Shown one piece after another: positions 31,664 to 48,986 of a stretch of 62,737 nt of DNA (position 1 is the stretch's first letter; the number at the start of each line of letters is the position of its first letter). The translations under genes were made by a program, and so were the position numbers. Source of the DNA: a virus; IMG/VR virus record IMGVR_UViG_3300046458_000082, positions 1 through 62,737 of that record; one strand, given 5' to 3'. Under the pieces are notes generated by a model. That model made no database searches and was not told the DNA's origin. It worked only from the letters and a program-made list of their open reading frames with translations.

Positions 31664-31707
31664 GTGTCGCGACACAATTTGCTGATTCGCGAAACGTGTC
31701 GCGACTT
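31664..31707. promoter_or_regulatory. Bipartite palindrome, copy 1 (holin-acb2 gap)
   Basis: Site GTGTCGCGACAC at 31664-31675 (perfect palindrome) and GTGTCGCGAC at 31696-31705. Centres lie 32 bp apart with a 20-bp spacer. The same design recurs at 37386-37429 and 48868-48911. Probably an operator for a dimeric regulator; see findings. Confidence 0.75.
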
Positions 31708-32038
31708 ACTCGGCCTTGCGGGCCGGTAGCTTGAAGTCAGTCACCCGATCCGCGATGTTCCGGATCTTCTCCACACCTAGGAAGCCAACCCAGCCACCAG
31801 CAAACGTGGCCATGCTCTGTGGCAGGCCGAAGAAATCTAGGCCACTGATGATGGTCAGTGTCAGGCCGCCGCAGATGGCGCCTTCCACCAGCATCTGGCG
31901 ACGTGTGCCGCCACCGTAAGTGATCCTCAAGACGGCCATGGCGCAGGACAGCGCAGCCGCATAGAGGATCGGCGAATGCTGGCTCAACCACGCAAGCGCT
32001 ATCGCCCATGTGTCTGGTTTGTCTGGCATGTTTGGCAT
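31706..32038 (-). CDS. Holin (LydA/holin family 3 type)
   Basis: 110 aa with three hydrophobic segments (ILYAAALSCAMAVLRIT, GAICGGLTLTIISGLDFFGL, MATFAGGWVGFLGV) and a charged C-terminal tail. The sequence is typical of the phage holin family 3/LydA. It would permeabilise the inner membrane to release the endolysin. Its near copy survives as a 126-nt fragment in the remnant prophage at 59720-59845. Confidence 0.9.
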   Translation of the reverse strand: MPNMPDKPDTWAIALAWLSQHSPILYAAALSCAMAVLRITYGGGTRRQMLVEGAICGGLTLTIISGLDFFGLPQSMATFAGGWVGFLGVEKIRNIADRVTDFKLPARKAE

Positions 32039-32149
32039 CTCGGTTCCTCCCCGTCAGGGAGTGGTGATCAATGGGTGGGAATTCACCCGTCGATTTGAGA
32101 CGGCTCGAGCAGCACTCCCAGCTTGAGGCGATGGGTGTGGCGGAGCCGA

Positions 32150-32179
32150 AAACAAAAGGGCTACGCGATGGCGTAGGCC
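32150..32179 (-). terminator. Terminator upstream of the late operon
   Basis: Minus-strand hairpin built on CTACGC / GCGTAG followed by a T-rich tract. It lies between the early region and the holin, where lambda has tR'. Suggests late genes depend on antitermination or a promoter in 32039-32149. Apart from this, 32039-32278 holds nothing else I can identify. Confidence 0.6.
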
Positions 32180-32278
32180 GGAATTTTTATCCAAATCAGT
32201 CCGTTAAGGATTGTCGGACAATTCTTTGAATTTTTTCGTCTACCAAAAATCATTAGTTCATGAGCAATAGGAGGACTC

Positions 32279-32557
32279 ATGAAACCGATAGATCTTTTCG
32301 TAATTGAATACAGACTTCACGGGAAGCCGAAGTCATTCATCATTCGAACGAAGCTGATGAACAACACGGAAGCGTGGCAGTGGGCGAGCTGCGACGCAGG
32401 CCTCGTTCCAATACCCAAGCCAGGCCGGCCGCCGCTTAAACGTTTTTCCAAGCCTATGGCGGAAAGGTTTGGCGTTACAGATGTTCGGTGGCGAGAGTCA
32501 TCAGCTCTCACCTGGGACGAGGAGCACTCCAATGACCGAGAGCATTCTGGGCTTTAG
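32279..32557 (+). CDS. Hypothetical protein (DUF6555-like)
   Basis: 92 aa with AGGAGG before the ATG. Begins MKPIDLFVIEYRLHGKPKSF and contains NNTEAWQWASCDAGLVPIPK, the pattern of a small Pseudomonas family I recall as DUF6555. It opposes the late operon and forms a pair with the overlapping gene at 32532. Function unknown. Confidence 0.68.
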   Translation: MKPIDLFVIEYRLHGKPKSFIIRTKLMNNTEAWQWASCDAGLVPIPKPGRPPLKRFSKPMAERFGVTDVRWRESSALTWDEEHSNDREHSGL

Positions 32558-32771
32558 AGATGAGCGTTATTGGGACGACGAGATAGCTGCCAACACCGAG
32601 CTTTTTCGTCAAGCAGACGCGCTCGATGAAGCTGCTTATAGGATCATTCAGTACGACCGCGGAAGTGCTGAAGCCTGGGCGCGCTTCTCTGAAGCAAAAG
32701 CTGTTGCAGATGCAAAACGAACGGCCGCATATCAGGACTGGATGCGAATTAAGCGCGCGATGAGGAAGTGA
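32532..32771 (+). CDS. Hypothetical protein
   Basis: 79 aa from ATG 32532 with GAGGAG upstream, overlapping the previous gene by 26 nt. Mostly helical and charged (DDEIAANTELFRQADALDEA). No family recognised. Terminators follow at 32786 and 32824. Confidence 0.68.
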   Translation: MTESILGFRDERYWDDEIAANTELFRQADALDEAAYRIIQYDRGSAEAWARFSEAKAVADAKRTAAYQDWMRIKRAMRK

Positions 32772-32785
32772 ATTGATTGTTCCGA

Positions 32786-32845
32786 AGCCCCGCGATATGC
32801 GGGGCTAGCGCAATTTGTCGCATAAAAAGCCCGCACGGAGCGGGC
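32786..32845. terminator. Pair of back-to-back terminators
   Basis: Stem AGCCCCGC / GCGGGGCT at 32786-32806 serves the plus-strand pair. Stem GCCCGC / GCGGGC at 32829-32845 with five T on the minus strand ends the gene at 32862. Confidence 0.75.
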
Positions 32846-32861
32846 AATGGGAAATTCTATT

Positions 32862-33164
32862 TCAAGCGCCGGATTCAGGATCGGACGCCGGAGCGTCGCG
32901 CGGTTCCTTCGCATCATCGCGCTGGTCGACCGAGTTCGAATCATCAGTAAGAGCCGCACCGCCATTACCGCGCCCTGTCTGGGCGTCTTGATCAGAGCCA
33001 GGGTTTCCAGGCGGTGGGTTCCAATCTTCTGGTCGTTCGTCAGTGCCTTGCTTCGGCTCAGATTCTGCCTTCTCTAGACCTGAGTCATGACTTCCGCCAG
33101 CGTCAGGCGCTTGCTCGCTTGGTCCTGGATATGGCGCTTCAGGGCCGTTGTTGTCTTCGATCAT
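32862..33164 (-). CDS. Disordered acidic hypothetical protein
   Basis: 100 aa with GGGAG upstream of ATG 33164. Almost entirely Pro/Gly/Asp/Glu/Ser, without any hydrophobic core, so probably unstructured. Codon use fits a real gene and a terminator follows. Such short disordered proteins are frequent in Pseudomonas; function unknown. Confidence 0.55.
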   Translation of the reverse strand: MIEDNNGPEAPYPGPSEQAPDAGGSHDSGLEKAESEPKQGTDERPEDWNPPPGNPGSDQDAQTGRGNGGAALTDDSNSVDQRDDAKEPRDAPASDPESGA

Positions 33165-33256
33165 GATTCTCTCCCGTCAGACGCGCAGGGTCTGCGCTTA
33201 CTACTACTGAGAGAAGTTTCGAAAACAGGGAGTGCAATTTCCTCGACGAGCGGCCA

Positions 33257-33286
33257 CAAAAAAGCCCCGCACGTTGGCGAGGCTTT
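33257..33286 (-). terminator. Terminator of the leftward early operon
   Basis: Minus-strand stem AAAGCC-CGC / GCG-GGCTTT with one mismatch and six T, about 75 bp after the last early gene. Confidence 0.75.
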
Positions 33287-33360
33287 GAAGTGGTCGTGCG
33301 CTGGAGGTAAGTTGCGCAGTGTGGGAAAAGTACATCAAATCCCCCACCATAGCAACACCT

Positions 33361-34038
33361 TTATGCCGCATCCTCCGAGTTCTCTGCGTGAATAACCTGC
33401 CAAACAGGTTGCTGTGCCTGAATATCCACTTCCTCGATGGCGTTTCGCAGGAAATTCCAAATATCGATCCAGTCCCGATCCCAATGCTTGGGCTGGATAG
33501 CTATCCCGTACAGCTTCATCATGGCGTCAGACACTCGAGCCGGGCCCCACGCATCACCTCCGTTCGCCTCGGCCTTGTAGGACTGCAGGGCGCAGGTGAT
33601 CAGGCAGTGCACCTTAGCTGCCTTAGCATCGGTGAGCGCACCGAAGTCGGTATCCGACCAGATCAGCTTTTCGGCGTTCAGCATGTGCACAACGGTCATG
33701 CACGGGTGGTAGAGGTAGTGCCCCAACTGCTGCAACTGGAACGGCAAGGACTCGATCGCTTTCTGGACCTTCCCCATGGTCACCAGGTGGGCGGCGCGAT
33801 GTGTCGACCGACCAATCGGCGTGCGGCGCGTCTCGGCGATGTGGATCTTCTGGCGTACAGCCATGATGCGCTCTTCCTTGTCCTCTCCCTGGGCAGCGAA
33901 GATGATCTCGCGCAGTGCTGCCTTTTCTTTCCTTACTACGGTTGCGGACTTGGCCCGATCAGCCGCCGCAGCGCTGATTGAGGCGTTTGATTCGTGCTGC
34001 GCATCAGTCCACGCTTGACGTGCGTTGATCAATTTCAT
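33361..34038 (-). CDS. Last gene of the leftward early operon, Q-position protein
   Basis: 225 aa. No family recognised with certainty. The N-terminal half is basic and helical; the middle has PFQLQQLGHYLYHPCMTVVH and the end DRDWIDIWNFLRNAIEEVDI. It follows NinG and precedes the terminator and late genes, the place of the lambda Q antiterminator. I infer a possible late regulator from position only. The start overlaps the NinG stop by 4 nt. Confidence 0.6.
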   Translation of the reverse strand: MKLINARQAWTDAQHESNASISAAAADRAKSATVVRKEKAALREIIFAAQGEDKEERIMAVRQKIHIAETRRTPIGRSTHRAAHLVTMGKVQKAIESLPFQLQQLGHYLYHPCMTVVHMLNAEKLIWSDTDFGALTDAKAAKVHCLITCALQSYKAEANGGDAWGPARVSDAMMKLYGIAIQPKHWDRDWIDIWNFLRNAIEEVDIQAQQPVWQVIHAENSEDAA

Positions 34039-34649
34039 GCTGCCTGCCCCTTCTTCAGTTCTCGGGTCTTGGCCCGGTATTCGGCCTTGATGGTTTTGAT
34101 TTCTTCGACGGCGTACTTGCGGGGCTCATGAGGCCCTTCAAGCCATGCCACGGTTTCGGCGCCGATGCGCAGCACCAACCGGATGCGGTATTCGACCGCG
34201 TTTCCGGACAGGTTGCGGTTGCACTTCACGCACTGACGGTGAATGTTCAGTGGCTCGAATCGCAGCTCGGGGCAGGCGCCGACGGATCGGTAGTGGCCGG
34301 CGTCCCAGCGACTGCCGGTCATGAGGTCGCTGTCGTTCGGCATCGAGTCGCAACTGATGCACGGCAACTGCGAGTCACGCAGACGGACGTACTCGTTGAC
34401 GGCCGTCTGGGCTTCGCGCAAGTGATCCGCCCTGGTCTTCAGCTTCTCCTTGCGGACTTTGATCTCGCGTCGACCGATCTGGGCGATGGCCTTTCGGGCT
34501 TTCTCGGCGTTTGCCGGCGCCATGGCGAGCGCACACTTCGGGCTGCACACCGCCTGCCCCAATCGCTGCGGCGGGAAGCTGATGCCGCACGCTGGGTTCT
34601 TGCACTTCTTCGGCTTCGGGGCCTTCTTCTCCTTGTGGGCTACGCGCAT
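34035..34649 (-). CDS. ninG: NinG recombination protein (Rap)
   Basis: 204 aa. N-terminal zinc site CKNPACGISF ... CSPKCALAMA, then the typical LPCISCDSMP, WDAGHYRSVGACPELRF and NIHRQCVKCNRNLSGN of the NinG family. Lambda Rap/NinG is a structure-specific endonuclease that aids Red recombination. The RecT/exonuclease pair lies on the other early arm. Confidence 0.95.
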   Translation of the reverse strand: MRVAHKEKKAPKPKKCKNPACGISFPPQRLGQAVCSPKCALAMAPANAEKARKAIAQIGRREIKVRKEKLKTRADHLREAQTAVNEYVRLRDSQLPCISCDSMPNDSDLMTGSRWDAGHYRSVGACPELRFEPLNIHRQCVKCNRNLSGNAVEYRIRLVLRIGAETVAWLEGPHEPRKYAVEEIKTIKAEYRAKTRELKKGQAA

Positions 34650-34918
34650 GGTTCAGCCTCCTTGGCTTTCTGCTGCTCTGGGGTGAAGTCGCCGCGCAGC
34701 GGCATCAAGTGCTCAGGACGGAAGAAACCACCGCCGGCCTCCCCATCTCGATAGACAACCCAGCCGTCAAACTTTGGAGTAAACAGGCGTCCATCAGGTT
34801 CTTGAGCGGTCTGCCCCTTGCGCAGGAACATGTCGAGTTTCACCGTGGTCATTGCGGCAAAACCGAAGCTGGAAATGAGAGTGAGCGCCAGATCGCCCGG
34901 CTTAAAGTTATTGGTCAT
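34640..34918 (-). CDS. Hypothetical protein between ninB and ninG
   Basis: 92 aa (MTNNFKPGDLALTLISSFGF). KPGDLAL resembles a small beta-barrel start and FDGWVVYRDGEAGGGFFRPE fits a phage accessory protein. It overlaps both neighbours by 10-11 nt in a tight nin-type operon. Function unknown. Confidence 0.68.
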   Translation of the reverse strand: MTNNFKPGDLALTLISSFGFAAMTTVKLDMFLRKGQTAQEPDGRLFTPKFDGWVVYRDGEAGGGFFRPEHLMPLRGDFTPEQQKAKEAEPCA

Positions 34919-35315
34919 AGCGGCCGTCCCAGTGGTCAGTTGCGCTCCACTTCACGTCATGCTCGGCGCCGAAGGCATGCATCAGCTCGAACAGATCGCT
35001 GAACCACTTCTGCGACTGTTTGCGGGTCGACACGGCCATCACGACGAAGCCACCGTCGAGGCCAGGCTCCGCGCGCTGCTTCTCCAGAGAGGCGCTGAAA
35101 AGGCACTTCCAGTCCTCACTGCTCAGCTTCTTGCCGTGCCAGATGACCTGCTCGGATACGTCCTTGAGCATTGCCCACATCTTGCGGTTGCAGATGTCCG
35201 GGCGTTTCTCGTCGCGGATCACAACTACCTTCGGCTTGCTCAGGTCGATGGCGTGCAGCACACCGGCGAGGCGGTTGATGTCGCGCTGGTCACGGATTGT
35301 GTATTCGGGGTTCAT
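34908..35315 (-). CDS. ninB: NinB recombination protein (Orf)
   Basis: 135 aa. MWAMLKDVSEQVIWHGKKLS, EDWKCLFSASL and FSDLFELMHAFGAEHDVKWS are typical of NinB. Lambda Orf helps load recombination proteins on SSB-coated DNA. Its overlap with neighbours and pairing with NinG are normal for lambda-like early operons. Confidence 0.94.
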   Translation of the reverse strand: MNPEYTIRDQRDINRLAGVLHAIDLSKPKVVVIRDEKRPDICNRKMWAMLKDVSEQVIWHGKKLSSEDWKCLFSASLEKQRAEPGLDGGFVVMAVSTRKQSQKWFSDLFELMHAFGAEHDVKWSATDHWDGRYDQ

Positions 35316-35599
35316 GGCTGTACCGCCTGGCTCAAGGCGGTGTCGAGGATCGCGCGAGTTCCTTCAAACCCCGCGTATTCATCCCAGTATTCGCGCTGCA
35401 CAGAATCACGAACGCCACTCAGCGCATTACGCAGCGCCTCGTTCTCGGCCAGCAGCTCGAGCGACACCTCCTCCACGGTTTTTTCGCCGAGGAATTCCTG
35501 CAACGCCTCGGTGTTGCGCTTCCAGTCGGCGCAGTCCGCGCTCCACGATGCGGGTTCAGCCCACAGCAGCTTCTGGAGCTTCTTTTTATCAATGGTCAT
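35312..35599 (-). CDS. Small early protein, perhaps Ea22-like
   Basis: 95 aa, acidic and helical (VEEVSLELLAENEALRNALS). The leucine/glutamate block resembles Ead/Ea22-like early proteins, but the match is short. Overlaps the NinB and P-position genes by 4 nt each. Function unknown. Confidence 0.6.
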   Translation of the reverse strand: MTIDKKKLQKLLWAEPASWSADCADWKRNTEALQEFLGEKTVEEVSLELLAENEALRNALSGVRDSVQREYWDEYAGFEGTRAILDTALSQAVQP

Positions 35600-36393
35600 C
35601 TGCTGGTTTCCTTTCCTTGCAACGCTGCGACCTGTGCGCGAAATCGGCGCCGGCGCAGGTATATGTCGACTCGCGCTGCTTGAGCTTTTTTCAGCCTTTG
35701 GCGTGCCTGCTGTTTTTGGTTGCCTTCAATGATCGAGCGGACTTCTGCCAACTTCTCTCGCACTCTTGGAGAGGCCTCGACCACTCGCCCTGTCAGCAAT
35801 CCGGCAATGGCCTGGCCGTCAGCGCTAACTGCTGAAACGCGCAGATCTGTTAGATGCTGATCGCCTGCTTGCTGGCTAATTAGCTGCATACGCACAGCCG
35901 ACTCAATCGCAGTGATCCTCCGAACTGGATCATGGCCGAGCGATACGCTCCAACTTGGCGGAGCCGCATCCGAGCGAGCCCGGATCACCAAACGCTCGTA
36001 GGCGCTAATGAACGCCATGCGCGCACCGACCTTGTCGCCGGCATCGAGAATCGGTTTTGCGGCAGCCAGCGCAAGCTGGATCTCGTCGGTCAGCACCACG
36101 GTTTCGAACTCGTCGTTCGTAGTCATGGCGATCGCCCATGCTTCGTCTTTGCCCGGGCGACCGTCAGCGGCCTGCACGCGCTGGAGAATGTCAGCCATCG
36201 CCAGCTTGCCCTTCACCTCGAAGCGACAGGCCTTCAGCGCGGCTTTCACGGTGGGCACTGAGTAAGCGCATAGGTCTTCCGCCATCATCGCCGCGGTGCC
36301 TGGATTCATTTCCTGACCCATGGCTTCAGCGGTGGCACAGATCGCAGCAGCAAGCCCGGCGACCTGCTGATCGTTCATTTCAAAGGTATTCAT
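35596..36393 (-). CDS. P-position replication-associated protein
   Basis: 265 aa. No motif for an ATPase is visible. The first 90 residues (AMMAEDLCAYSVPTVKAALK, CRFEVKGKLAMADILQRV) resemble the loader/adaptor proteins coded after the initiator in Pseudomonas lambda-like phages. It follows the O-like gene with a 14-nt overlap, the place of lambda P (helicase loader). The role is inferred from order. Ends in a strongly basic C-terminus. Confidence 0.62.
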   Translation of the reverse strand: MNTFEMNDQQVAGLAAAICATAEAMGQEMNPGTAAMMAEDLCAYSVPTVKAALKACRFEVKGKLAMADILQRVQAADGRPGKDEAWAIAMTTNDEFETVVLTDEIQLALAAAKPILDAGDKVGARMAFISAYERLVIRARSDAAPPSWSVSLGHDPVRRITAIESAVRMQLISQQAGDQHLTDLRVSAVSADGQAIAGLLTGRVVEASPRVREKLAEVRSIIEGNQKQQARQRLKKAQAARVDIYLRRRRFRAQVAALQGKETSR

Positions 36394-37351
36394 TGCGCTC
36401 CCCTGCTTGGCGATTGGCCAAAACTATTTGCGCGGCCTGTTCGGCGGCGGAGACATTCGCCTCGGTGCGTTCCATTTGGCGTGCGGTAGTCCCGTTGATG
36501 CGCTGACCGGTCACCCACTGGGTGTGGTAGCTCTCGGCGTTGGCCAGCAGTTCGTTGAGGCTGTGGCACTTGCGCAGCACTGCGGCATCGGCGGTTTTCA
36601 GGAAGTGTGCAGCGACGTGGTGAGCGACATCGGCACCGAGGCGGTCGACCAGTTGACCGAGCTGGCCACCAACCTTGGCGTTCCACACCGGCCAGGTGCT
36701 GTAGCGCTTGCGGTAGGCCATGGCGTAGTTCGCCCAGACCTTGAAGGTTTTGCAGGACTGGTCTTTCGGGCCAGGCATGTCGGCGGGAATCTCAACCCGT
36801 GGCGTATCGGTACGATCAACCACCAGCACCAGATTGCGGGCCGGCTTGTCCGGGCTGCCTTGCAAGTCCTGACTGGTATTCTGATTGGTACCCTGATGAT
36901 TGGTATCCTGATTTGTCGGAAATTTTTCCGACCCTTGCTCGGATTTTTCTCCGACCTTGCTCGGATTTTTTTCCGAGGTAGATCGGATTTTTTTCCGACC
37001 TTCGTTCTTTGGTGGGGTCGGATATTTTTCCGACCCATCCAGCTTCTGGTTCCACTCGATTGCTTTCTCGGTGAGGCGAAACAGAGTGATGTTCGAAGTG
37101 CTGGAAAGCTCAATCAAACCGGCTTCTTCCAGGGCCTTCAGCATGCGGTAGGCAGTGTCTGGCTTATCAGTGAGTAGCGGCAGCTCCTCGGTGATCTTTG
37201 CCTTGCTCAGCGCGAAGAAGATCCCGTCGTCAGTCTTGATTGGCTTGGTCCAGCTCGGGCAGCCGTAGACGAAGGCGAACAGCAGGGCCTGCTGAGAATT
37301 CAGCCCCCACTCCAGCGCCTTCACCTGATTGATCGTGACGGTGAATTGCAT
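36380..37351 (-). CDS. O-like replication initiator with internal origin
   Basis: 323 aa from ATG 37351 (MQFTVTINQVKALEW). An N-terminal winged helix region (residues about 10-100: LTDKPDTAYRMLKALEEAGL) is followed by a Lys/Ser/Pro-rich linker (about 105-165) and a C-terminal domain with WANYAMAYRKRYSTWPVWN. The linker DNA carries five iterons (36915-37035), as in lambda O. The protein should bind these iterons and recruit the next gene's product. Longer frames upstream lack a start site. Confidence 0.82.
   Translation of the reverse strand: MQFTVTINQVKALEWGLNSQQALLFAFVYGCPSWTKPIKTDDGIFFALSKAKITEELPLLTDKPDTAYRMLKALEEAGLIELSSTSNITLFRLTEKAIEWNQKLDGSEKYPTPPKNEGRKKIRSTSEKNPSKVGEKSEQGSEKFPTNQDTNHQGTNQNTSQDLQGSPDKPARNLVLVVDRTDTPRVEIPADMPGPKDQSCKTFKVWANYAMAYRKRYSTWPVWNAKVGGQLGQLVDRLGADVAHHVAAHFLKTADAAVLRKCHSLNELLANAESYHTQWVTGQRINGTTARQMERTEANVSAAEQAAQIVLANRQAGERNEYL
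36915..37035. repeat. Five 19-bp iterons inside the O-like gene (candidate origin)
   Basis: Iterons at 36915-36933, 36938-36956, 36960-36978, 36982-37000 and 37017-37035. Each follows TCGGA-A/T tract-TCCGA and is itself an inverted repeat. The first four are 22-23 bp apart. An AT-rich run of shorter direct repeats (GATTGGTA) lies beside them at 36880-36912. Lambda ori has four 19-bp iterons in O. Confidence 0.88.
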
Positions 37352-37385
37352 GTCAGGTGTTCCTGACGCTAGGAGCAAAGAAATA

Positions 37386-37429
37386 GATGCGCGACACGTT
37401 TTTCGAATTTTGAAAACGTGTCGCGACAT
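37386..37429. promoter_or_regulatory. Bipartite palindrome, copy 2 (upstream of the O-like gene)
   Basis: Half-site CGCGACAC at 37390-37397 and GTGTCGCGACAT at 37418-37429; centres 32 bp apart, spacer 20 bp and almost palindromic itself (GTTTT...AAAAC). It lies 35-78 bp upstream of the initiator start. Same design as 31664-31707 and 48868-48911. Confidence 0.78.
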
Positions 37430-37530
37430 TGTTCGGGGTATTGCTCGAATTGTGTTGGCTCTGCATAATCGGGCCTCTCTAGTTTTGCGAATCAGCCGAC
37501 CTTCTCCGTCGGCTTTTTTGTGCACGCTGT

Positions 37531-38145
37531 TCAGGCGATCTTCAAATTCAGTCGGTGTTTCGCGATCAGGGCTTCTGCCTTCCGGCCCAATTCCCCTGCC
37601 CGCGCTTCTACCTGGCGGCACTGCTCAGCGAACGCTGGCAGGTGCGGAAGGTCCTCTTCGCACATCACCTGGTCGTCAAAAACTTCGCTGCCGGTATCGA
37701 TCACGTCGCCCAAAGCACGGATAAGTGCACCGAAGCTTCTGTTGGCGCATTGGTCGTTCTGCATCTGGCGGGCACCGATCAGTCCGTGACGCCCCGCCAG
37801 TTCATTGATGCAGTGATCACGGAATTCTGGCTCCAGAGCATTCACCCAGGACTCTTCCAGCCAAGACGGCATTTCCTGATCGCCCGAAAGCCAGCGCTGC
37901 ACGCGCTTCAACCAGCGGCCTGTCGCCTTCACGAACTCGCTTACCTCGCCGGTCAGCTCTGGCGAATTGAAGTCAGGAACTTCCTTCTTCTTAGCGCGCT
38001 CAGGAATCGATAGGTGCAGCTCGCGACTCAGCGCTTGGGCGAAATCGTCTTGGCTCAAGCTGGTTCGGGCGATCTGGTTTTGGGCGTGGGCGACCAGGAC
38101 CTGATCACGGGGTTGTACGGTGTGTCTGGAACTGGACGTTTCCAT
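37531..38145 (-). CDS. Early protein in CII position
   Basis: 204 aa. No helix-turn-helix is evident; the sequence is helical and Trp/Arg-rich in the middle (KATGRWLKRVQRWLSG). It is first after cro in the leftward early operon, where lambda has cII, so a regulatory role is possible but not supported by motif. I do not recognise a family. Confidence 0.6.
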   Translation of the reverse strand: METSSSRHTVQPRDQVLVAHAQNQIARTSLSQDDFAQALSRELHLSIPERAKKKEVPDFNSPELTGEVSEFVKATGRWLKRVQRWLSGDQEMPSWLEESWVNALEPEFRDHCINELAGRHGLIGARQMQNDQCANRSFGALIRALGDVIDTGSEVFDDQVMCEEDLPHLPAFAEQCRQVEARAGELGRKAEALIAKHRLNLKIA

Positions 38146-39488: not shown

Positions 39489-39574
39489 AAAACTAAACGC
39501 TCATGTACTCAGGCGATTTGTGGGCAGAAAAAAAGAACGTAAATATCTCGTATAGAATTTCAGGGAAGGCAAGA

Positions 39575-41326
39575 ATGAGTAATAAAAAACGCACCGACAA
39601 TGATTTCTCATACGTGCAAAAAATTAATATTACTCATTTTCGCGGACTTAAAAACCTAGCCATCCCTCTCGGCAAACGAATAACATTACTTTGCGGTAAA
39701 AACGGCACGTCAAAATCATCAATACTAGGAATAGCCGCTCAAGTTTTTAGCTTTGAAAAAGACTACGTTAAAGACGAGCAACTGTCATTCCAAACGCTGA
39801 CTGGCGCTAAATTTGAATCTCGAGTTTCTGAGCATTTTCGCCTTTCTAAGAAATTTGACAGGCCAGACTCAATGGAGACCTCAGTATCAATTTACGACGG
39901 ATACACATCTGCCGAGGCCGAGTTAACTCTTAAACTATATGATTCCAAAGACAGGAATAAGCCACGGCCAATCGTTCGGGGAAACACGCTATCCGAAGGT
40001 GAAAACACGAGCAGGAATGCAACGCACCCAGTTATTTATTTAAGTCTTAAGCGACTAACGCCTATATCTCAGCGAGCGAAGTATGCGGAGCATGATATAG
40101 ACTTCCTCGCTGAAAACAGGCGTGAGTTTGTATCGCTGAGCAACAGACTACTCAGCAAAAGATCAGCAACATCTGTAACAGCGACAACTGGCACGATTAA
40201 ATCTGCTGCTGCCCACGGTACAAACTATGACCACGACTCGGTTTCAGCGGGCGAGGATAATGCGGGCCAAATACTACTAGCCATATTTTCTTTCAGAAAG
40301 CTGAAGGCTGAATACCCTGAATACAAGGGCGGCTTATTACTAATCGACGAAGCTGACGCAGGCTTGTTTCCCGCAGCACAACGACAACTAATCCAAATTC
40401 TTACAGAAGAGTGCAAAGATTTAAATATTCAAGTTATTATGACATCCCACTCTCCGACGATGATCGAAGACATTCAAAAGCTCAGCCTCCTCGATAGCGC
40501 CAATTATCAAAATATCTATTTGAGCGATAGCTATGGTCCGATACAGATTTTTGAGAATGTAACTTGGCCACAAATTTATGCGGATCTTCACGTCCAGCCA
40601 ATCCTAATTGATACCGATTTATTACCTCAAATAAATCTATACTTTGAAGACAAAGAAGCGAGTGATTTTTACGCAGCAATTATTACAGACAGGACAATTA
40701 ATAAGATAACTAACCCACTTAAAGATATAGCGCTAGGCTGCTCTGAGTACATCAAACTCGTAAAGCGAAAGATTCCGGAATTTCGTATAAAAAGCCTAAT
40801 CATCCTCGATGGAGATGTGGAAGGCACAAAAGAATTTGATAGCATTCTCAAACTACCTGGCAATCTTCCGCCAGATCAACTTATCTTCGAGTTCCTTTAC
40901 AATCTTGCGCCAGACGACGCATATTGGAAAAACCGTTTAGGTTTCACAAAGCCGGTATTTTTATCTTTGTGCCAGAAGCTTGCCGACACATTAGCAATTG
41001 ATCCTGCTGACGAAAAAATAGATATGGCAAAGCTCGTTTCTGCGCACAGCAAGTCATCCGGCCCAGAGGATCAGCGCTTGCGAAGTCATTTCAAGCTTTT
41101 TGCGAATGACAAAACGTTTCTGAGCATGGTCTCAGGGGGCGCAGCGAATAATCCTTACAGGGCTTGGGCAAAGCATCACCCCGAGCTGTGCGAGGAGTTC
41201 AGAAGTTCGTTAAGGAAAGGGCTCCGTAACGCAATGGTGAATGGCTTCGGCATTGACCCGGCAATGCTTAAGGCTCTCGATGACCCAGAAGACTTGAAAA
41301 AAACCAAATCCAAGGTTTCCGAATAG
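39575..41326 (+). CDS. OLD-like AAA ATPase with TOPRIM-like nuclease part
   Basis: 583 aa from ATG 39575 with GGAAGG upstream. ATPase: Walker A GKNGTSKSS (41-49), ABC-signature-like SAGEDNAGQ (224-232), Walker B LLLIDEAD (254-261), and SHS (291-293). The C-terminal half shows a TOPRIM-like set: FEDKEASDFY (357-366) and LIILDGDVEG (408-417). This is the OLD/GajA-type layout, linked to phage defence. Clearly more AT-rich than neighbours. It sits between cI and the early region, with a Dam-type methylase behind. Substrate and trigger unknown. Confidence 0.82.
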   Translation: MSNKKRTDNDFSYVQKINITHFRGLKNLAIPLGKRITLLCGKNGTSKSSILGIAAQVFSFEKDYVKDEQLSFQTLTGAKFESRVSEHFRLSKKFDRPDSMETSVSIYDGYTSAEAELTLKLYDSKDRNKPRPIVRGNTLSEGENTSRNATHPVIYLSLKRLTPISQRAKYAEHDIDFLAENRREFVSLSNRLLSKRSATSVTATTGTIKSAAAHGTNYDHDSVSAGEDNAGQILLAIFSFRKLKAEYPEYKGGLLLIDEADAGLFPAAQRQLIQILTEECKDLNIQVIMTSHSPTMIEDIQKLSLLDSANYQNIYLSDSYGPIQIFENVTWPQIYADLHVQPILIDTDLLPQINLYFEDKEASDFYAAIITDRTINKITNPLKDIALGCSEYIKLVKRKIPEFRIKSLIILDGDVEGTKEFDSILKLPGNLPPDQLIFEFLYNLAPDDAYWKNRLGFTKPVFLSLCQKLADTLAIDPADEKIDMAKLVSAHSKSSGPEDQRLRSHFKLFANDKTFLSMVSGGAANNPYRAWAKHHPELCEEFRSSLRKGLRNAMVNGFGIDPAMLKALDDPEDLKKTKSKVSE

Positions 41327-41390
41327 GGCTGGCCAAGTATACTGCCGGCCGTTAAACTGAGGTTGCGCACACCTCAAAGGATGAGACCAA

Positions 41391-42269
41391 ATGTACTCCA
41401 ACAAGCTGTATAGCCCCCTACGCTACCCTGGCGGTAAGGCTCGATTCGCGCCTTTCATCGCAGAGGTGATGCGGGCTAATGGCCTGGAGGGCGGACACTA
41501 TCTCGAACCATTTGCCGGCGGGGCCGGCGTTGCCCTTGAGCTTCTGTTCGAGGGACACGCGACGCATATCCATATTAATGATCTCGATCCGGCCGTATTC
41601 GCCTTTTGGTCAGCCGCGACTGCCGATCCGGACGGAATCTTAAAGCTTCTCAGGGACACGCCAATCACTATGGAGCAATGGCATCACTGGCGTTCAGTGA
41701 TGCTTGAACAAGCGCCTGACCTATCCCTTGCGCAGAGGGGCTTTGCAACACTTTTTGTGAACCGCACGAACCGATCAGGCATCCTCAAGGGTGGAGTTAT
41801 CGGGGGGAAGGCACAGACCGGCGCCTACAAACTTGACGCTCGGTTTAGCAAAGAAATGATTGCTGCCAGGCTTGAACGAATCGCGCTGAATGCAGATCGG
41901 ATTTCGGTATATTGCGAGGATGCATTTCTTTTGCTCGGCCGAGCAGCAGAGTTTCTGCCCGACCAATCGCTGATCTACCTTGATCCGCCCTATTACGTTA
42001 AGGGGCGTGGCCTATACCGAAATTTCTATAAGCACGATGACCATCTGCAAATCGCTCAATTACTGCAGTCGCCTGACTTCAAGAGACCATGGGTAGTCTC
42101 GTACGATAGCGCACCAGAAATCTGCGAAATGTACAGCCAGAACGAAGCACTGACTTACGGACTTCACTACACCGCCCAAGCGCGATATGTAGGCGATGAG
42201 GTTATGTTCTTCAAAGAAGGCATTTCTGTACCTGATGCGAAAATTCCTAGAGCCACTGTGGCTGCCTAA
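41391..42269 (+). CDS. D12 class adenine-N6 DNA methyltransferase (Dam type)
   Basis: 292 aa. LRYPGGKARF and PFAGGAG (40-46) form motifs X/I for SAM binding; LDPPYY (197-202) is catalytic motif IV. AAAGGA precedes the ATG. It starts 64 bp after the OLD-like gene and ends at a terminator, so the two form one cassette. It could protect phage or host DNA from the upstream nuclease, or just change methylation. GATC as target is probable by family, not proven. Confidence 0.92.
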   Translation: MYSNKLYSPLRYPGGKARFAPFIAEVMRANGLEGGHYLEPFAGGAGVALELLFEGHATHIHINDLDPAVFAFWSAATADPDGILKLLRDTPITMEQWHHWRSVMLEQAPDLSLAQRGFATLFVNRTNRSGILKGGVIGGKAQTGAYKLDARFSKEMIAARLERIALNADRISVYCEDAFLLLGRAAEFLPDQSLIYLDPPYYVKGRGLYRNFYKHDDHLQIAQLLQSPDFKRPWVVSYDSAPEICEMYSQNEALTYGLHYTAQARYVGDEVMFFKEGISVPDAKIPRATVAA

Positions 42270-43570: not shown

Positions 43571-43650
43571 CGATTTCACTGGCTGGCCTTGGCGACAGGG
43601 CCAGACGGGAAATCAACGACGCAATTGCCCGGATGTGAAGGGACCTGAGG

Positions 43651-43860
43651 TCAAAGCGCGCAAAACGGCAGCGAGACAGTGTCTGCTACGAAGGTAAATG
43701 GTAAGTCGATGAACACGAGCGGGCCGAAAAACATCCATAAATCGTATTCACCATGAACGCCGTCATAGCAGTCATAGGACCCCGGGCTGGTAACCGCGCC
43801 AAGCCAGGCGCAGCCAGTTAACTGTGAAATGGCCAACATCAAGATGAGCTTCCGTAGCAC
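43651..43860 (-). CDS. YceK/YidQ-like lipoprotein (moron)
   Basis: 69 aa from GTG 43860, with AAGGAAG upstream. Lipobox LTGC, then SPGSYDCYDGVHGEYDLWMF and a hydrophobic FFGPLVFIDLPFTFVADTVS, the pattern of the YceK/YidQ (DUF1375) family. It runs against the early operon, so it can be expressed by the lysogen. Such lipoproteins may alter the envelope; role unknown. Confidence 0.8.
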   Translation of the reverse strand: MLRKLILMLAISQLTGCAWLGAVTSPGSYDCYDGVHGEYDLWMFFGPLVFIDLPFTFVADTVSLPFCAL

Positions 43861-44033
43861 GTAACTTCCTTATCACTTTTCCATTGTGTGATCTGTAGAC
43901 GTCAGCAGGGGAAGTTAGTCACCAGCCCCAACACCACCCGAATGCACTCCCCTCCGCGCCCAACGGCAACCAGCGGAGCGGATGAGTGCATCCGAGTTTT
44001 GTTGGATCAACACCCGCCACTCTGGAGACGACC

Positions 44034-44438
44034 ATGTCAGCTCTACGCAAGCCCATCCCGGAAGACGACTTTCTCGATACGGAGGCAGGTCAAGAATGGC
44101 TGACCGAGTCGGTCGACGATCTGCTTTATCGGCGCCACGTCGAGGCACCAAATCCGGTAGGCCGAAGCAAGGTTCTGGTCAACGCCGACCACTTACCGGA
44201 GGCGCTGGCGGATCACATGGCTGCGAACCCAGATCCAGATCGGTACATCGAGAAGATTTTGATCGAGCTGATCAGGCGCGCCGATAGCGGGATTCTGCGC
44301 ACCTGGGCCATCGAAGCCGTCGGCGGCGATCCACTGGTTGTTCGAAGACTGGCCGGCGACCTGATCGCGGTGCGCGCCAACGAATATCGCGACGCCAAGG
44401 GTGAAAGCGATCGCGTAGAGCGGGAGTGCGGCTTTTGA
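44034..44438 (+). CDS. Hypothetical early protein
   Basis: 134 aa from ATG 44034 with GGAG upstream (MSALRKPIPEDDFLDTEAGQ). Helical, acidic N-terminus. No family recognised. Starts a tightly overlapping run of small genes to 45298. Confidence 0.66.
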   Translation: MSALRKPIPEDDFLDTEAGQEWLTESVDDLLYRRHVEAPNPVGRSKVLVNADHLPEALADHMAANPDPDRYIEKILIELIRRADSGILRTWAIEAVGGDPLVVRRLAGDLIAVRANEYRDAKGESDRVERECGF

Positions 44439-44626
44439 GCCCTCACATCTTGATCGACCAAGCCCTTGATGGTGTGTCGGCGCCCGCCGGCGAAGAAGAC
44501 ATCAGCCTGCTGGTACAGGGGCTGATCACCCGCCTCTTCACCGACGGCGCCATCACCACCGACGAATTCAACCACTACTGCAAACGCCTGCGTGACACCT
44601 GTCAGCGGCGCAAGGAGGACGCATGA
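44435..44626 (+). CDS. Hypothetical early protein with TTG start
   Basis: 63 aa. The TTG at 44435 overlaps the previous stop (TTGA) and has GGGAG 8 nt upstream; the GTG at 44426 is too close to that site. Helical (SPHILIDQALDGVSAPAGEE). No family recognised. Confidence 0.6.
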   Translation: MSPHILIDQALDGVSAPAGEEDISLLVQGLITRLFTDGAITTDEFNHYCKRLRDTCQRRKEDA

Positions 44627-44817
44627 GTACGGCACCGGTTAAATCGCTCATCGACGAGCAGCTCGATGACATCGAGCACAAGATCGCCCTGCTCGGCTTC
44701 GGCCTTCCCTTCAACGAGGTGATCGGCCGCAAGCGCGAGGATCTGGTCGCCAATCTGCCGCAGCGCCTGTCGGTGACCATGAAAGGTGGTCGTATCGCGG
44801 CAAGGGTTCGGTCGTGA
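44623..44817 (+). CDS. Hypothetical early protein
   Basis: 64 aa with AAGGAGG upstream and ATGA overlap. Helical (VKSLIDEQLDDIEHKIALLG) with a basic C-terminus. No family recognised. Confidence 0.66.
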   Translation: MSTAPVKSLIDEQLDDIEHKIALLGFGLPFNEVIGRKREDLVANLPQRLSVTMKGGRIAARVRS

Positions 44818-45185
44818 GCTTTTACGAAGACAGCGTGGCCGATGGAAGTCACTGCATGAGCTGCTGCCAGCTCATTGGCGAGGAGGTCGGATATCCACGG
44901 GCTTGCCTGAATTGCGGCGGCGAAGGCGGCGAGCCAAACCCCGACGGACATAAAAAGCGAATGAAGGCTAAGGCCATGCAGCGCTTTGACGTCTGGCTGT
45001 CTCGTACTGGCCTCGCCCACAAGAAGCACAACAACGGCTACCACGTTGTGTTGACGCTTCCGGACGGTCGCATGATCGATTGCTGGCCCAGCACGAAAAA
45101 GTGGCAGCTCCGAGGGCAGCGCATTAGCCGTGACGGCAAAGCGCTGCATGAACTAGTACTGCAGCAGCTGAGGCCATGGCCATGA
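44814..45185 (+). CDS. Early protein with two Cys pairs
   Basis: 123 aa from GTG 44814 overlapping the previous stop. CMSCCQLIGEE and CLNCGGEGGE form a likely zinc site in the first 40 residues; a basic domain follows (DVWLSRTGLAHKKHNNGYHV). Possibly nucleic-acid binding. No family named. Confidence 0.67.
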   Translation: MSFYEDSVADGSHCMSCCQLIGEEVGYPRACLNCGGEGGEPNPDGHKKRMKAKAMQRFDVWLSRTGLAHKKHNNGYHVVLTLPDGRMIDCWPSTKKWQLRGQRISRDGKALHELVLQQLRPWP

Positions 45186-45298
45186 CTTCCCGGCAGCTTG
45201 CCCGCCGCATTCTGATCCGACGTGGCTCTTTCTCCGCCATCGGCGTTTTCACCTTCCTGATGCTTCTCAGCGCCCTCGCGGATCGCATCACTCAATAA
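45182..45298 (+). CDS. Tiny single-span membrane protein
   Basis: 38 aa, ATGA-coupled to the previous gene. Basic start (MTSRQLARRILIRRG), then one hydrophobic segment (FSAIGVFTFLMLLSALA). Stops 43 nt before recT. Inferred inner-membrane peptide of unknown role. Confidence 0.5.
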   Translation: MTSRQLARRILIRRGSFSAIGVFTFLMLLSALADRITQ

Positions 45299-45341
45299 AC
45301 AAAGAATTCAATCGCTGCGCACCGCGCGGCAAGGAACAGTC

Positions 45342-46229
45342 ATGTCCGCTCAAAGCGTGGCGCCGGTGGCGCACGACCGAAACCTTCACGTTCTTCCGCA
45401 CGCCGCAACCAGTACCAGCGCTTTGGTGTTGGACGGCGACAGCCTGGACAAGATGATGCGCTTGGCCGAGGTCATGGCGACCGGCCGTGCCACTTTGCCG
45501 AAGCACTTCAACGGCAACGCAGCGGATTGTCTGGCGGTCGTCATGCAGGCAATGCAGTGGAAAATGAATCCGTTCGCCGTGGCGCAGAAAACGCATTTGG
45601 TGAATGGCGTGCTGGGCTACGAAGCGCAGCTGGTGAACGCGGTGATCACTACCTGCGCGCCGGTGCTGGATCGCCTGCATTACGAATGGTACGGCGCTTG
45701 GGAAAAGGTGATCGGCAAGTTCACCATCAAGAACGGTGACAAAGGCGAGTACCGCGTCCCGGGCTGGAAGCTTGAAGACGAGCAAGGGCTGGGCGTGAAG
45801 GTCTGGGCAACCTTTCGGGGCGAAGACGAGCCGCGAGTCCTTGAGTTGCTGCTTGCCCAGGCTCGCACTCGAAACAGTACGCTCTGGGCTGACGACCCTC
45901 GCCAGCAACTGGCGTACCTCGCCACCAAGCGCTGGTCGCGCCTCTATTGCCCGGACGTGATCCTCGGCGTGTACAGCCCAGATGAACTCGAAGAATCCGC
46001 GCCAACCATTCGTGACGTGTCACCGGCACGTGGCGCGGCACCAGCTGAACTTCCTCCCTATCCCGACGAGAAGCTCGCGGAAAACCTGCCCAAATGGCAA
46101 ACCGCAGTCGAGGCCGGACGCTCCGCCCCTGATCACCTGATCGCAACCGTCAGCAGCAAATTCACCCTGAGCGAAGAGCAGGTCGCCAAGATCAAAGCGC
46201 TCGCGCCAATTGAAGGAGACAAAGAATGA
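45342..46229 (+). CDS. recT: RecT-family single-strand annealing protein
   Basis: 295 aa. MTRLAEVMATGRATLPKHFN-type start (here MMRLAEVMATGRATLPKHFN), then DCLAVVMQAMQWKMNPFAVA and AYLATKRWSRLYCPDVILGV, the RecT/lambda Bet-like core. It anneals homologous single strands for phage recombination. Partner of the overlapping exonuclease gene. Confidence 0.93.
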   Translation: MSAQSVAPVAHDRNLHVLPHAATSTSALVLDGDSLDKMMRLAEVMATGRATLPKHFNGNAADCLAVVMQAMQWKMNPFAVAQKTHLVNGVLGYEAQLVNAVITTCAPVLDRLHYEWYGAWEKVIGKFTIKNGDKGEYRVPGWKLEDEQGLGVKVWATFRGEDEPRVLELLLAQARTRNSTLWADDPRQQLAYLATKRWSRLYCPDVILGVYSPDELEESAPTIRDVSPARGAAPAELPPYPDEKLAENLPKWQTAVEAGRSAPDHLIATVSSKFTLSEEQVAKIKALAPIEGDKE

Positions 46230-47848
46230 AAATCCACAATGTCGCTCAGGGGTCCGAAGCCTGGCATGCGCTCCGCGCCAACTACTTCACTGCGTCAGAA
46301 GCACCGGCGATGATGGGCGCCTCGAAACAGATGAAGCGCACCGAACTGCTGCACGCAAAAAAGACAGGCCTCGATCGAGACGTGTCGTGGTGGGTGCAGA
46401 AAAACCTCTTCGACAAAGGGCACGAAGCGGAGGCACTTGCTCGGCCGATTCTCGAAGGCCGAATCGGAGAAGATCTGTTCCCCGTCGTCGGCACCGAAGG
46501 TGACCTGCTCGCATCCCTCGACGGCTGCACAATCCTCGGAGACGTGCTGTTCGAACACAAAATGTGGAACGAGCAACTTGCTGCCGACGTTCGCGCCGGC
46601 AACCTCGATGCGCACTACTACTGGCAGCTCGAACAACAGCTGCTGGTGAGCGGCGCCGAGAAGGTGATCTTCGTCTGCTCCGATGGCACTGAAGAAAACT
46701 TCGTTTCGATGGAATACACACCGGTACAGAGCCGAGCCGAGACACTCGTAGCAGGCTGGAAGCAGTTCCAAACCGATCTGCAGGACTTCACTCCCGCCGA
46801 GGTGGTGCCGGAGGCCGTTGGCAAAACGCCGGAATCCTTGCCTGCTCTACGCATCGAAGTCACCGGTATGGTCACCGCCAGCAACCTGGAGCAGTTCAAA
46901 GCCCACTCGCTGGCTGTTTTCGGCTCGATCAACACCGAGCTGGAAACGGATCAGCACTTCGCCGACGCAGAGAAAGCGGTCAAGTGGTGCGGTGATGTTG
47001 AGGAGCGGCTTGAGGCTGCGAAGCAGCACGCCCTGAGCCAAACCGAGAGCATCGACGCGCTGTTCCGCACCATTGACGAGATCAGTGCCGAAGCCCGTGC
47101 GAAGCGTTTGATGCTCGACAAGCTGGTGAAGGCTCGTAAGTTGAGCATTCGCGAAGATATTGTCATGACCGCAGCCAAGGCGCTTCAGATTCACATCGAC
47201 CAGATCAACACTTCACTGGGCGGCAAAGCGCGCATGCCGGCGGTACCTGCGGATTTCGCCGGGGCCATCAAAGGCAAGAAGACGATCAGCAGTCTGCGCG
47301 ACTCCGCCGACTCCGAGCTGGCCCGGGCGAAGATCGCCGCGAGCCAGATCGGCGACAGCATCCGTACCAACTTAGCCAGCCTGGACGAGCTCGCTGCCGA
47401 CTACCTGTTTCTGTTCAACGACGTGCAGCAGTTGGTGATGAAGGCGAACGACGACCTGGTCGCGCTGATCAAGGTGCGTATTTCTGAACACCAAAAGGCT
47501 GAGGAGCAAAAAGCCGAAGCACAGCGCGAGCAGATCCGACAACAGGAGCTGCAACGGATTGAAGCTGAGGCCAAATCCAGTGTTCCTCTTGAGCCTGCAC
47601 CAGTCGTCTCCACGGTATCGGTGAAAGCCCCCACGCCGGCTCAGTCTGCCTCGAATCCAGCAACCGCGGCGCCGGTGAACCTGCAGGCCGAAGTGTTTGA
47701 TCTGGAAGAGCTGATCAAAGCAGTTGCTTACGGCCAGGCGCCTATCTCTGTGCTGACCGTGAGCTGGGAACACCTCGACGCGCTGGTCGCCGATCAAGGC
47801 AACAAATTCAGCATGGCCGGCGTGAGGCTGGTAAGGGTGGCAGCATGA
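46226..47848 (+). CDS. YqaJ-type exonuclease fused to a DUF1351-like domain
   Basis: 540 aa. Residues 1-195: lambda-exonuclease/YqaJ fold with GSEAWHALRANYFTASEAPA, GHEAEALARP, LLASLDGCTILGDVLFEHKM and HYYWQLEQQLLVSG. Residues about 215-430: long helices (DEISAEARAKRLMLDKLVKA) of the DUF1351 type. The rest is a coiled linker and short tail. Usually these domains are separate proteins. It makes 3' overhangs for RecT; the gene overlaps recT by 4 nt. Confidence 0.9.
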   Translation: MKIHNVAQGSEAWHALRANYFTASEAPAMMGASKQMKRTELLHAKKTGLDRDVSWWVQKNLFDKGHEAEALARPILEGRIGEDLFPVVGTEGDLLASLDGCTILGDVLFEHKMWNEQLAADVRAGNLDAHYYWQLEQQLLVSGAEKVIFVCSDGTEENFVSMEYTPVQSRAETLVAGWKQFQTDLQDFTPAEVVPEAVGKTPESLPALRIEVTGMVTASNLEQFKAHSLAVFGSINTELETDQHFADAEKAVKWCGDVEERLEAAKQHALSQTESIDALFRTIDEISAEARAKRLMLDKLVKARKLSIREDIVMTAAKALQIHIDQINTSLGGKARMPAVPADFAGAIKGKKTISSLRDSADSELARAKIAASQIGDSIRTNLASLDELAADYLFLFNDVQQLVMKANDDLVALIKVRISEHQKAEEQKAEAQREQIRQQELQRIEAEAKSSVPLEPAPVVSTVSVKAPTPAQSASNPATAAPVNLQAEVFDLEELIKAVAYGQAPISVLTVSWEHLDALVADQGNKFSMAGVRLVRVAA

Positions 47849-48087
47849 TCAGCAACCACCTCAACCTCGTCGAGCAGCACCGACCTGACGCCGAGTCGAT
47901 CTCTGAACGAATCGCGCAGTACCTGGCTGCCGGCGGACGGATCGACCAACTGAAAAGCCCGCCACGCAATCCGTTACCACCGCCCCGCTCGAACAAAATA
48001 GACCCTGAAACGGTACTCAAGCGTCGGCCGAAGCCGATATCGGCAGCCGACCGCAAGACTCTGCGCAAAATGGCGGACTCGATATGA
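47845..48087 (+). CDS. Hypothetical early protein
   Basis: 80 aa, ATGA overlap with the exonuclease gene. N-terminal HRPDAESISERIAQYLAAGG resembles a short DNA-binding helix pair; the rest is Pro/Arg/Lys-rich. No family recognised. Confidence 0.66.
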   Translation: MISNHLNLVEQHRPDAESISERIAQYLAAGGRIDQLKSPPRNPLPPPRSNKIDPETVLKRRPKPISAADRKTLRKMADSI

Positions 48088-48548
48088 AGTCGAAACGCAA
48101 ACCCAACAACGGTTTCGCCCGGGCTGAACGCAGTTGCCGGGCGCTGCTGCGCACGAACCACGTCGCAGTGGTCAACATCGACCCCAGCGGCAGCCAGATC
48201 ATGGCGAACTGGAAGAGCTGTAAGCAGATCCGCAGTCTGGCGATCGCCAACGCGATCTTCGACTTTTCTTACCGCTGGACGATCTACATCGCCGCCATGT
48301 GTCGAGACGAGCGCGGCGCCGAGTACATCAAGTCGGTGGAGATATCGCCCGAGGGCATCTACAAGGTCGAGCGCCTTACTGATGCGATCGAGCATTACTA
48401 CCTGGAACTGCGCAACAGCGCGAACCCGACCCATCTGGTGGCATCAGGCTGGATCGCCATTCCCGACGAGATATCGATGGATGAAGCCCAAGCCGCGAAG
48501 CTGTTCTACGCCGCCGGCGCCTGGCATCAGGTGAAGGTCGCAGCGTGA
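48084..48548 (+). CDS. Hypothetical early protein, copy truncated in the remnant prophage
   Basis: 154 aa, ATGA overlap. The body is mixed alpha/beta (AVVNIDPSGSQIMANWKSCK). The last 37 residues are nearly identical to the fragment at 57798-57911, so both prophages carried this gene next to the RHH-type regulator. Function unknown. Confidence 0.7.
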   Translation: MKSKRKPNNGFARAERSCRALLRTNHVAVVNIDPSGSQIMANWKSCKQIRSLAIANAIFDFSYRWTIYIAAMCRDERGAEYIKSVEISPEGIYKVERLTDAIEHYYLELRNSANPTHLVASGWIAIPDEISMDEAQAAKLFYAAGAWHQVKVAA

Positions 48549-48730
48549 GACGTTCCAGACCACAACAACGCAAACGACAAACCTGGCCGGACTTGCCGGC
48601 CAGCGGAATTGAAGAGGTAGGCCATGGCCGAAGTACAGGAGCCGACGAAGGAAGCTATCAAGCAGAAGAAAAAACGCGAGAAGGCGGCAGCAAAGGACGC
48701 TGCTTTGGGCGTCGAGAAGTTTACGGTTGA
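48545..48730 (+). CDS. Overlapping small frame, conserved in both prophages
   Basis: 61 aa from GTG 48545. The first 28 residues (MRRSRPQQRKRQTWPDLPAS then GIEEVGHG) are conserved in the remnant (57908), but the rest overlaps the RHH gene and diverges. The GTGA coupling is a plus. It may be a small basic peptide or just leader sequence. Confidence 0.35.
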   Translation: MRRSRPQQRKRQTWPDLPASGIEEVGHGRSTGADEGSYQAEEKTREGGSKGRCFGRREVYG

Positions 48731-48986
48731 GGTAGCTGGGGTTTTCAAGCCAGACCTCAAGCGAGTCATGGCTGCCCACGGCATCAACAACCAGCAAGAG
48801 GTTCACCAACTGCTGCTGATGAACCTGATCACCGCCGACTTCGATAACCAGGCCAAGATGCTTCGGTGTGTCACGACACCTTTTGTTGTTACTGAAAAGG
48901 TGTCGCGCATTATTCAGGCAGCCGGCATGAAGTCGCTTGTGGATGATCCGCCAGAACCTGACGAAGAAATATACACCCCTGAATAA
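48624..48986 (+). CDS. Ribbon-helix-helix-type regulator candidate
   Basis: 120 aa, GAAGAGG upstream. After a Lys/Ala-rich start, KFTVEVAG (strand), FKPDLKRVMAAHGINN (helix) and QQEVHQLLLMNLITAD (helix) fit a ribbon-helix-helix fold. A paralog is at 57987-58322 and a third, broken, at 49010-49086. The gene carries the bipartite palindrome at 48868-48911, also found before acb2 and the O-like gene. I infer a DNA-binding autoregulator; the fold is predicted by eye. Confidence 0.66.
   Translation: MAEVQEPTKEAIKQKKKREKAAAKDAALGVEKFTVEVAGVFKPDLKRVMAAHGINNQQEVHQLLLMNLITADFDNQAKMLRCVTTPFVVTEKVSRIIQAAGMKSLVDDPPEPDEEIYTPE
48868..48911. promoter_or_regulatory. Bipartite palindrome, copy 3 (inside the RHH-candidate gene)
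   Basis: GTGTCACGACAC (48868-48879) and GTGTCGCGCATT (48900-48911), centres 32 bp apart, spacer 20 bp with CTTTT...AAAAG ends. Lies in the coding sequence of the candidate regulator. Confidence 0.75.

Follow-up and report, generated by a model that had tools for sequence, protein, structure and literature searches.

A dispersed paired palindrome in Pseudomonas phages as a candidate operator for a ribbon-helix-helix-like protein family

In the viral DNA of IMG/VR record IMGVR_UViG_3300046458_000082 (62,737 nt, the whole stretch being referred to here as the window), a palindrome made of two half-sites at a wide and rigid spacing recurs at dispersed places. The analysis points to these pairs as operator-type sites for a phage protein family of the ribbon-helix-helix (RHH) type, represented in the window by the genes 48624-48986 and 57987-58322, a reading that is drawn from sequence comparison and to which we assign a probability of roughly 60%.

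The paired element and its two sequence classes

The first-pass annotation had placed three pairs in the gap before an Acb2-like gene, in the leader of an O-like initiator and inside an RHH-type gene, and all three were located exactly there (sites 1-3, Table 1). Their inner halves, which it had read as one larger inverted repeat, follow the pattern CGACAC-N20-GTGTCG, present three times in the window and never in reversed form, against a chance expectation of 0.0037 (Poisson P 9e-9); when the spacer was allowed any length between 5 and 35, these three places came back and no extra ones. Single GTGTCGCGACAC-like sites with up to three mismatches are not enriched in the window (37 vs 37.1 expected), and thus the signal is the pair and not a lone palindrome. 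With a 44-position weight matrix, whose training set included the window's own sites, sites 1-3 score 57.5, 58.7 and 40.8, the maximum over 40 shuffled windows being 2.4. The window carries two further sites of a second sequence class (sites 4 and 5), the first of which, judged by eye, could be what is left of the 3' end of a second RHH-family member. None of the five sites lies between cro and cI, in agreement with the proposal that the element is distinct from the CI/Cro operators.

Beyond the window, the consensus of 148 distinct sites, in which the core bases were fixed by the search pattern, is a 44-bp palindrome that reads GCGACACnTTT inwards from each side, with a weak centre and with outer halves that are often degenerate or lost on one side. 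In the consensus, arm and family analyses, sites without enough flank or containing N were dropped and duplicates by spacer or sequence were removed; loci L001-L003, which are copies of the window, were dropped before counting, and class-mismatched chance matches (e.g., phi2 33740 and phiAH14a 26563) were not counted as sites. Across eleven records the matrix separates sites (mostly 35-59, one 17) from shuffled sequence (maximum 2.4). A spacer of 20 is found in 177 of the 187 CGACAC/GTGTCG pairs no more than 60 bp apart in protein-fetched loci (2.25 Mb), the background in the scan of named records amounting to 67 matches over 29 other spacings. The distance of exactly 32 bp between centres, described at the outset as constant, holds for most sites, and fails in one gene subfamily with a spacer of 21 (130 of the 206 intact in-gene sites).

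In 81 dissimilar representatives, picked by a matrix trained on A-type arms, the arms vary independently at their variable positions, and position 8 agrees between arms (A/A 71, C/C 8, A/C 0, C/T 2), an agreement that defines two classes, A (GCGACAC) and C (GCGCCAC). The independent variation argues against an RNA or cruciform stem. An RNA hairpin, serving antitermination or mRNA control, would suit window sites 1-3, which fall inside genes of transcribed units or between them, and base pairing of the halves can indeed give a stem; the hairpin is nevertheless highly improbable, since compensatory changes at the variable arm positions are absent, the loop length is fixed, and there are conserved families with mismatched arms, such as the holin-side family, in which 28 distinct sites were grouped.

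Where the site lies inside a gene, constraint is seen to act on the DNA. In 81 RHH-like genes the half-site codons are synonymously frozen, with Val GTC, Thr ACG, Thr ACA, Pro CCT and Val GTG nearly invariant, and the spacer codons vary, the whole-site comparison (Mann-Whitney P 0.015) being diluted by the free spacer. In the other branch (136 members), Arg CGC accompanies Ala GCG in 126 and CGA accompanies Ser TCG in six, with no crossed combination and four that differ otherwise, so that a synonymous choice of Arg codon in one arm predicts Ala or Ser ten codons further on, in the other arm. This coupling is explained only by a symmetric DNA target. Val is encoded by GTG in 136/136 at the site of this branch, vs 243/596 elsewhere in the same genes. 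Taken together, the rigid spacing, the lack of stem-like covariation and the frozen half-site codons indicate that the element is a protein site at the DNA level, behaving as one with two identical half-sites, much as had been supposed from the window. As a separate observation, the same reading frame over the site (V-A/T-T...V-S-R) is used in three seemingly unrelated genes: the window gene holding 48868-48911, the leaders of the antirepressor gene (ant) and F10 gp043; chance or codon preference may account for this.

The RHH-like family as candidate ligand

The product of 48624-48986, which the first-pass annotation had put forward as the protein to test, comes out as the best candidate ligand, and we infer that the sites are probably read by this protein. 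It belongs to PHROG 5439, a family of unknown function. An intact site, situated near the 3' end of the gene, is present in 206 of 235 unique family members (124 C with spacer 21, 76 A with spacer 20, six A with spacer 21, none mixed), with the qualification that the peptide patterns fetching two of the three gene sets include site-encoded residues and favour site-keeping members; the other 29 have no exact in-gene site, several differing by small changes. A counterpart of site 3 was found in all 80 homologous loci fetched. Family members occur in the window and in all 20 phages of a panel chosen for other sites, and a search across the wider class gave a family match in 3/229 genomes, G001 itself being one.

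The structural model of 48624-48986 is of middling quality, with a predicted local distance difference test score (pLDDT) of 72, and Foldseek returned no match for it. The model of the paralog (57987-58319; pLDDT 82, above 90 in the core) has helices at residues 30-42 and 48-61 after an extended stretch, with no strand assigned in the monomer, and its best match is the RHH domain of NikR (Z 5.5, root-mean-square deviation 1.1 over 44 residues). It also matches AtaR, TacA and MatP, which we take to be RHH proteins. Sequence searches of the family against Pfam, NCBIfam and PDB yielded no credible relative. The paralog model suggests that the family may be RHH-like, a Z of this size being no proof. 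Inspection by eye suggests a tandem duplication of the RHH-like core within one chain in members of 160 residues (e.g., L516 6504-6989). The idea that one residue of the RHH strand sets specificity (V vs E/Q/K) failed on L606, L608 and L685, and no such residue is put forward.

Classes match within the individual site and usually across the sites of one phage. Single-class composition was found in 28 of 29 records with at least two listed sites (16 A, 12 C; one mixed), a count based on 50 loci that we picked to cover both classes, two of them in one record, with records having unlisted places left out. In the 20-phage panel, 17 phages have the same class in the gene as at their ant and holin sites, two have different classes, and one has no in-gene site (Fisher P 0.001, a value that ignores kinship; as we selected the panel phages ourselves and they are related, P values come out smaller than they should). 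At each of five further left-arm sites, too, the class is that of the phage carrying it. Medea1 (4/4) and phiPSA1 (2/2) are uniformly C over the 50 kb examined of each, and phi2, LESphi3 and SC_8 are each A in 2/2. No gene perfectly associated with class was found in association tests. Relatives of an open reading frame (ORF) annotated NinB in PseuP_222 (L207 12627-13142) are present in 14/36 class C loci and in 0/99 class A loci; this ORF lies between two sites, and linkage may be conceived as the origin of the association.

Several observations weigh against this assignment, in addition to the retrieval bias and the kinship already given. Linkage accounts in part for the class agreement within the gene. 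In G021, whose gene is N-terminally short, and in G040, the class of the gene differs from that of the other sites; phiAH14a mixes the classes (2 C, 1 A), as does G026; and the panel phage G041 has a distant family member that lacks the site. An RHH-family gene was not detected in the site-bearing phages VW-6S, F10, BR133a and Pacha, nor in the satellite-like phiAH14b (PseuP_222 has none in the 50 kb examined and one further on). The structural Z scores of the paralog remain below 8, plant TCP domains match it too, and Foldseek E-values exceed 1. Moreover, promoter-like sequence above the 95% null was not found beside the holin, RHH-gene, satellite and F10-type copies tested, contexts with N being left out.

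Placement and spread of the sites

Three main locations are occupied: the RHH gene itself, the interval from cII to ant or O, and the stretch separating the holin from the genes that follow it. Beside cII, the site is found about 100-300 bp past the stop codon, with 65 sites over 79 loci for PHROG 4834 (at about 100-200 bp) and 71 over 80 for CP76 (L027 is left out of this count). It usually falls within the first codons of an antirepressor-type gene, the downstream domain of which differs between phages (Phage_pRha by Pfam in one, the rest judged by eye). In 27 of the 124 distinct leaders, as in the window, the reading frame does not stay open for 50 codons beyond the site, and thus leader and site are retained without the gene.

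This constant neighbourhood would also be expected if the CII-like protein encoded beside site 2 were the ligand, and one of the two CII families matches Phage_CP76, a CII family. Lambda CII, for its part, acts at three promoters. Such a role is very unlikely here, taking into account that the PHROG 4834 and CP76 families, of which only CP76 matches Pfam, share the same sites, each with both classes, and that no substitute palindrome was seen by eye in 17 readable site-less cII loci (19 were printed; L265 ends inside the site and L345 ends too soon). Another reading starts from the ant leaders, in which the site persists through exchange or loss of the downstream domain: the copies could be recombination joints or centromere-like sites serving module exchange, DNA bridging or segregation, as in phage N15, where dispersed palindromic sites are bound by a partition protein. 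We regard this as quite unlikely, given that the centres differ between copies in one phage, leaving no shared core for site-specific exchange, that the window has an integrase, that none of the 30 window proteins scanned (a subset of its genes) gave a PHROG match to ParA, and that frozen half-sites with free centres suit protein binding better.

Beside site 2, a promoter-like element antisense to the leader is followed by a terminator-like hairpin (Table 1), which is read just before cII in relatives too. The pattern TTGC-N17/19-CATAAT, chosen after being seen, is separated from the site core by exactly 14 or 17 bp at 115 of 911 distinct site sides, and has 218 matches overall in 10.56 Mb (both strands, duplicates included). 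The codons over the -35 are frozen in the leaders, with Asn AAT in 119/124 (elsewhere 163/609), Ser AGC in 96/96 (elsewhere 241/952) and Thr ACC in 118/122 (elsewhere 525/840). In Medea1, another site is located 10 bp upstream of TTGACA-N16-CATAAT.

As to the spread of the element, at least 120 stretches of viral contigs carry the 14-base pattern, a few of which look like chance, and the 20-base strict pattern occurs in 74 stretches in 84,980 genomes, 72 of them titled Pseudomonas. The two other titles are Streptomyces (L145) and Endozoicomonas, the latter with a weaker site; L145 holds ant-leader-like and RHH-gene sites and is probably mislabelled Pseudomonas phage DNA. Of 398 genomes in the genus to which one Pseudomonas host belongs, 133 hold one or more matches to the both-class pattern, vs three for the reversed control; at least two of the listed matches (G277, G235) look like chance. 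Site-bearing phages with names include F10, BR133a, Pacha, VW-6S, SC_8, phi2, LESphi3, Medea1, phiPSA1, PseuP_222 and phiAH14a. The 16.8-kb element phiAH14b, with a class C site at L200 6268-6311, looks like a satellite, its annotation having integrase, AlpA, Rha and primase and no capsid gene; its record and that of phiAH14a name the same host strain, and the RHH-gene site of phiAH14a is also of class C. No window gene family is common to eight other site-bearing records, the best reaching 5/8 (holin and tail genes). Flanks of the CTGCCCTACCGAAATGGGA type accompany the sites of L132, L136, L140, L141, L142, L159, L162, L167, L187, L189 and L193, and tail-assembly-like and recombinase-like ORFs were seen by eye near such sites in the four loci read.

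This concentration in Pseudomonas, the sites in elements without a detected RHH gene, and hosts that are one-class across several elements (e.g., G246, G408 and G188, among the matches listed) would be compatible with a host-encoded DNA-binding protein that phages and satellites exploit. Such a protein is unlikely to be the answer, however. G189, G154, G139 and G371 carry elements of both classes (among the matches listed), which argues against a single host factor, and in G189 and G154 the classes agree within each element with two listed sites. The strict pattern is, moreover, rare among the genomes searched, and most flanks read are of the kinds seen at ant leaders, holins, RHH genes or satellites (for four, gene content was read as well; L176, L179 and L182 are unplaced).

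The features on which the argument relies are collected in Table 1, where the Acb2-like identity first given to the neighbour of site 1 is borne out by a domain match. Beside cI, the window also encodes a 607-aa ATPase-like protein and a DNA methyltransferase (39503-42269), possibly an accessory or defence cassette.

Table 1. Paired sites and associated features of the window
Feature	Position	Strand	Remarks
Site 1, class A (GCGACAC)	31664..31707		between holin stop and Acb2-like start codon
Site 2, class A	37386..37429		within short leader ORF upstream of O-like gene
Site 3, class A	48868..48911		within 3' part of RHH-like gene
Site 4, class C (GCGCCAC), spacer 21	49027..49059		directly after RHH-like gene 48624-48986
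Site 5, class C, spacer 21	58209..58241		inside paralog gene 57987-58322
Acb2/Tad1 hairpin-domain protein	31416..31646	-	Acb2_Tad1_hairpin match, E 7e-19
O-like replication initiator	36380..37351	-	
37-aa leader ORF containing site 2	37353..37466	-	start matches antirepressor-type gene starts in relatives
Promoter-like TTGCTC-N17-CATAAT	37441..37469	+	antisense to leader ORF, pointing at cII
Intrinsic-terminator-like hairpin and T run	37494..37519	+	by eye in sequence; between promoter-like element and cII
CII-like gene (PHROG 4834)	37531..38145	-	
RHH-like protein, A-class member, PHROG 5439	48624..48986	+	candidate DNA-binding protein
Paralogous RHH-like protein, C-class member	57987..58322	+	AF2 model pLDDT 82; structural matches mostly RHH proteins

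Proposed mechanism and known systems

In the mechanism proposed for the RHH-like family, one dimer would bind each half of the 44-bp palindrome, and the fixed spacer of 20-21 bp would bring both together as a dimer of dimers facing one side of the helix. Targets of the protein would be the copy at the 3' end of the gene that encodes it, leading to autoregulation, the cII-ant/O site in the right early operon, and the holin-side site of the late operon. Bound between cII and O, it would act on the promoter-like element directed back at cII, and at the remaining copies mainly hinder passing transcription, the net outcome being that three operons would be tuned or shut down together. The second class (GCGCCAC) would be served by diverged members of the family. 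Given binding, repression or roadblock, and not activation, is tentatively preferred at somewhat below even odds, because the copies are situated inside transcribed units, in genes or between them, and most have no adjacent promoter; activation of the antisense promoter or bridging between sites may be alternative modes. A broader picture can be drawn, in which one RHH family, nearly always with a site of its own inside the gene, coordinates the early-left, early-right and late operons through two to five paired palindromes as a phage-wide control or DNA-bridging system, with two exclusive specificities and with satellites carrying gene-less sites to tap the regulator of the resident phage; this is conceivable, and we lean against it.

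If the proposal is true, Pseudomonas phages would have a common yet unannotated regulatory circuit, linked to antirepressor, replication, lysis and anti-CBASS (cyclic-oligonucleotide-based antiphage signalling system; Acb2-like) genes. The two specificity classes would then constitute a natural experiment on RHH recognition, the site in a satellite-like element would suggest a satellite-phage sensing link, and a regulatory site would be seen to be held at one intragenic place while most of the encoded protein diverges.

Among known systems, the operator of NikR, a nickel-controlled host regulator, is GTATGA-N16-TCATAC (PMC7055735), recognised by a tetramer that carries two DNA-binding domains of the RHH type. 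The likeness lies in a palindrome of two half-sites at wide fixed spacing, seen here as sequence, and in the NikR RHH domain being the top match of the paralog model; the differences are the near-palindromic halves, the wider spacing and the dispersed copies, some of them intragenic, with no metal domain found. The view that no comparable phage operator was known has to be tempered in this respect, as wide fixed half-site spacing has a precedent in this host-encoded RHH regulator. The stoperators of Cluster A mycobacteriophages are described as more than 20 asymmetric 13-mers, aligned with the direction of transcription, to which a monomeric immunity repressor binds (PMC9283540). The two systems have in common phage-wide sites in transcribed regions and one phage protein, proposed to stop elongation; they differ in that one to five symmetric sites per phage are found here, and not many asymmetric, oriented ones.

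In lambda, oop overlaps the end of cII by 52 bases (PMC5869508). The window resembles lambda pO-oop-tO at the sequence level in having promoter and terminator elements between cII and O, pointing at cII, and differs in that its terminator-like element ends at 37519, about 12 bp before the end of cII at 37531, with no cII overlap. We know of no lambda pO-oop-tO counterpart of the 44-bp palindrome upstream of the -35. In P22, Arc and Mnt are RHH repressors of the antirepressor gene ant, with its operator; their operators differ from the present element and, to our knowledge, have no dispersed copies. Neither the exact 12-mer nor a description of such a system in Pseudomonas phages was found in the open-licence PMC papers searched. 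The system partly parallels known ones, resembling NikR in its geometry and the stoperators in its dispersal, with full membership in neither.

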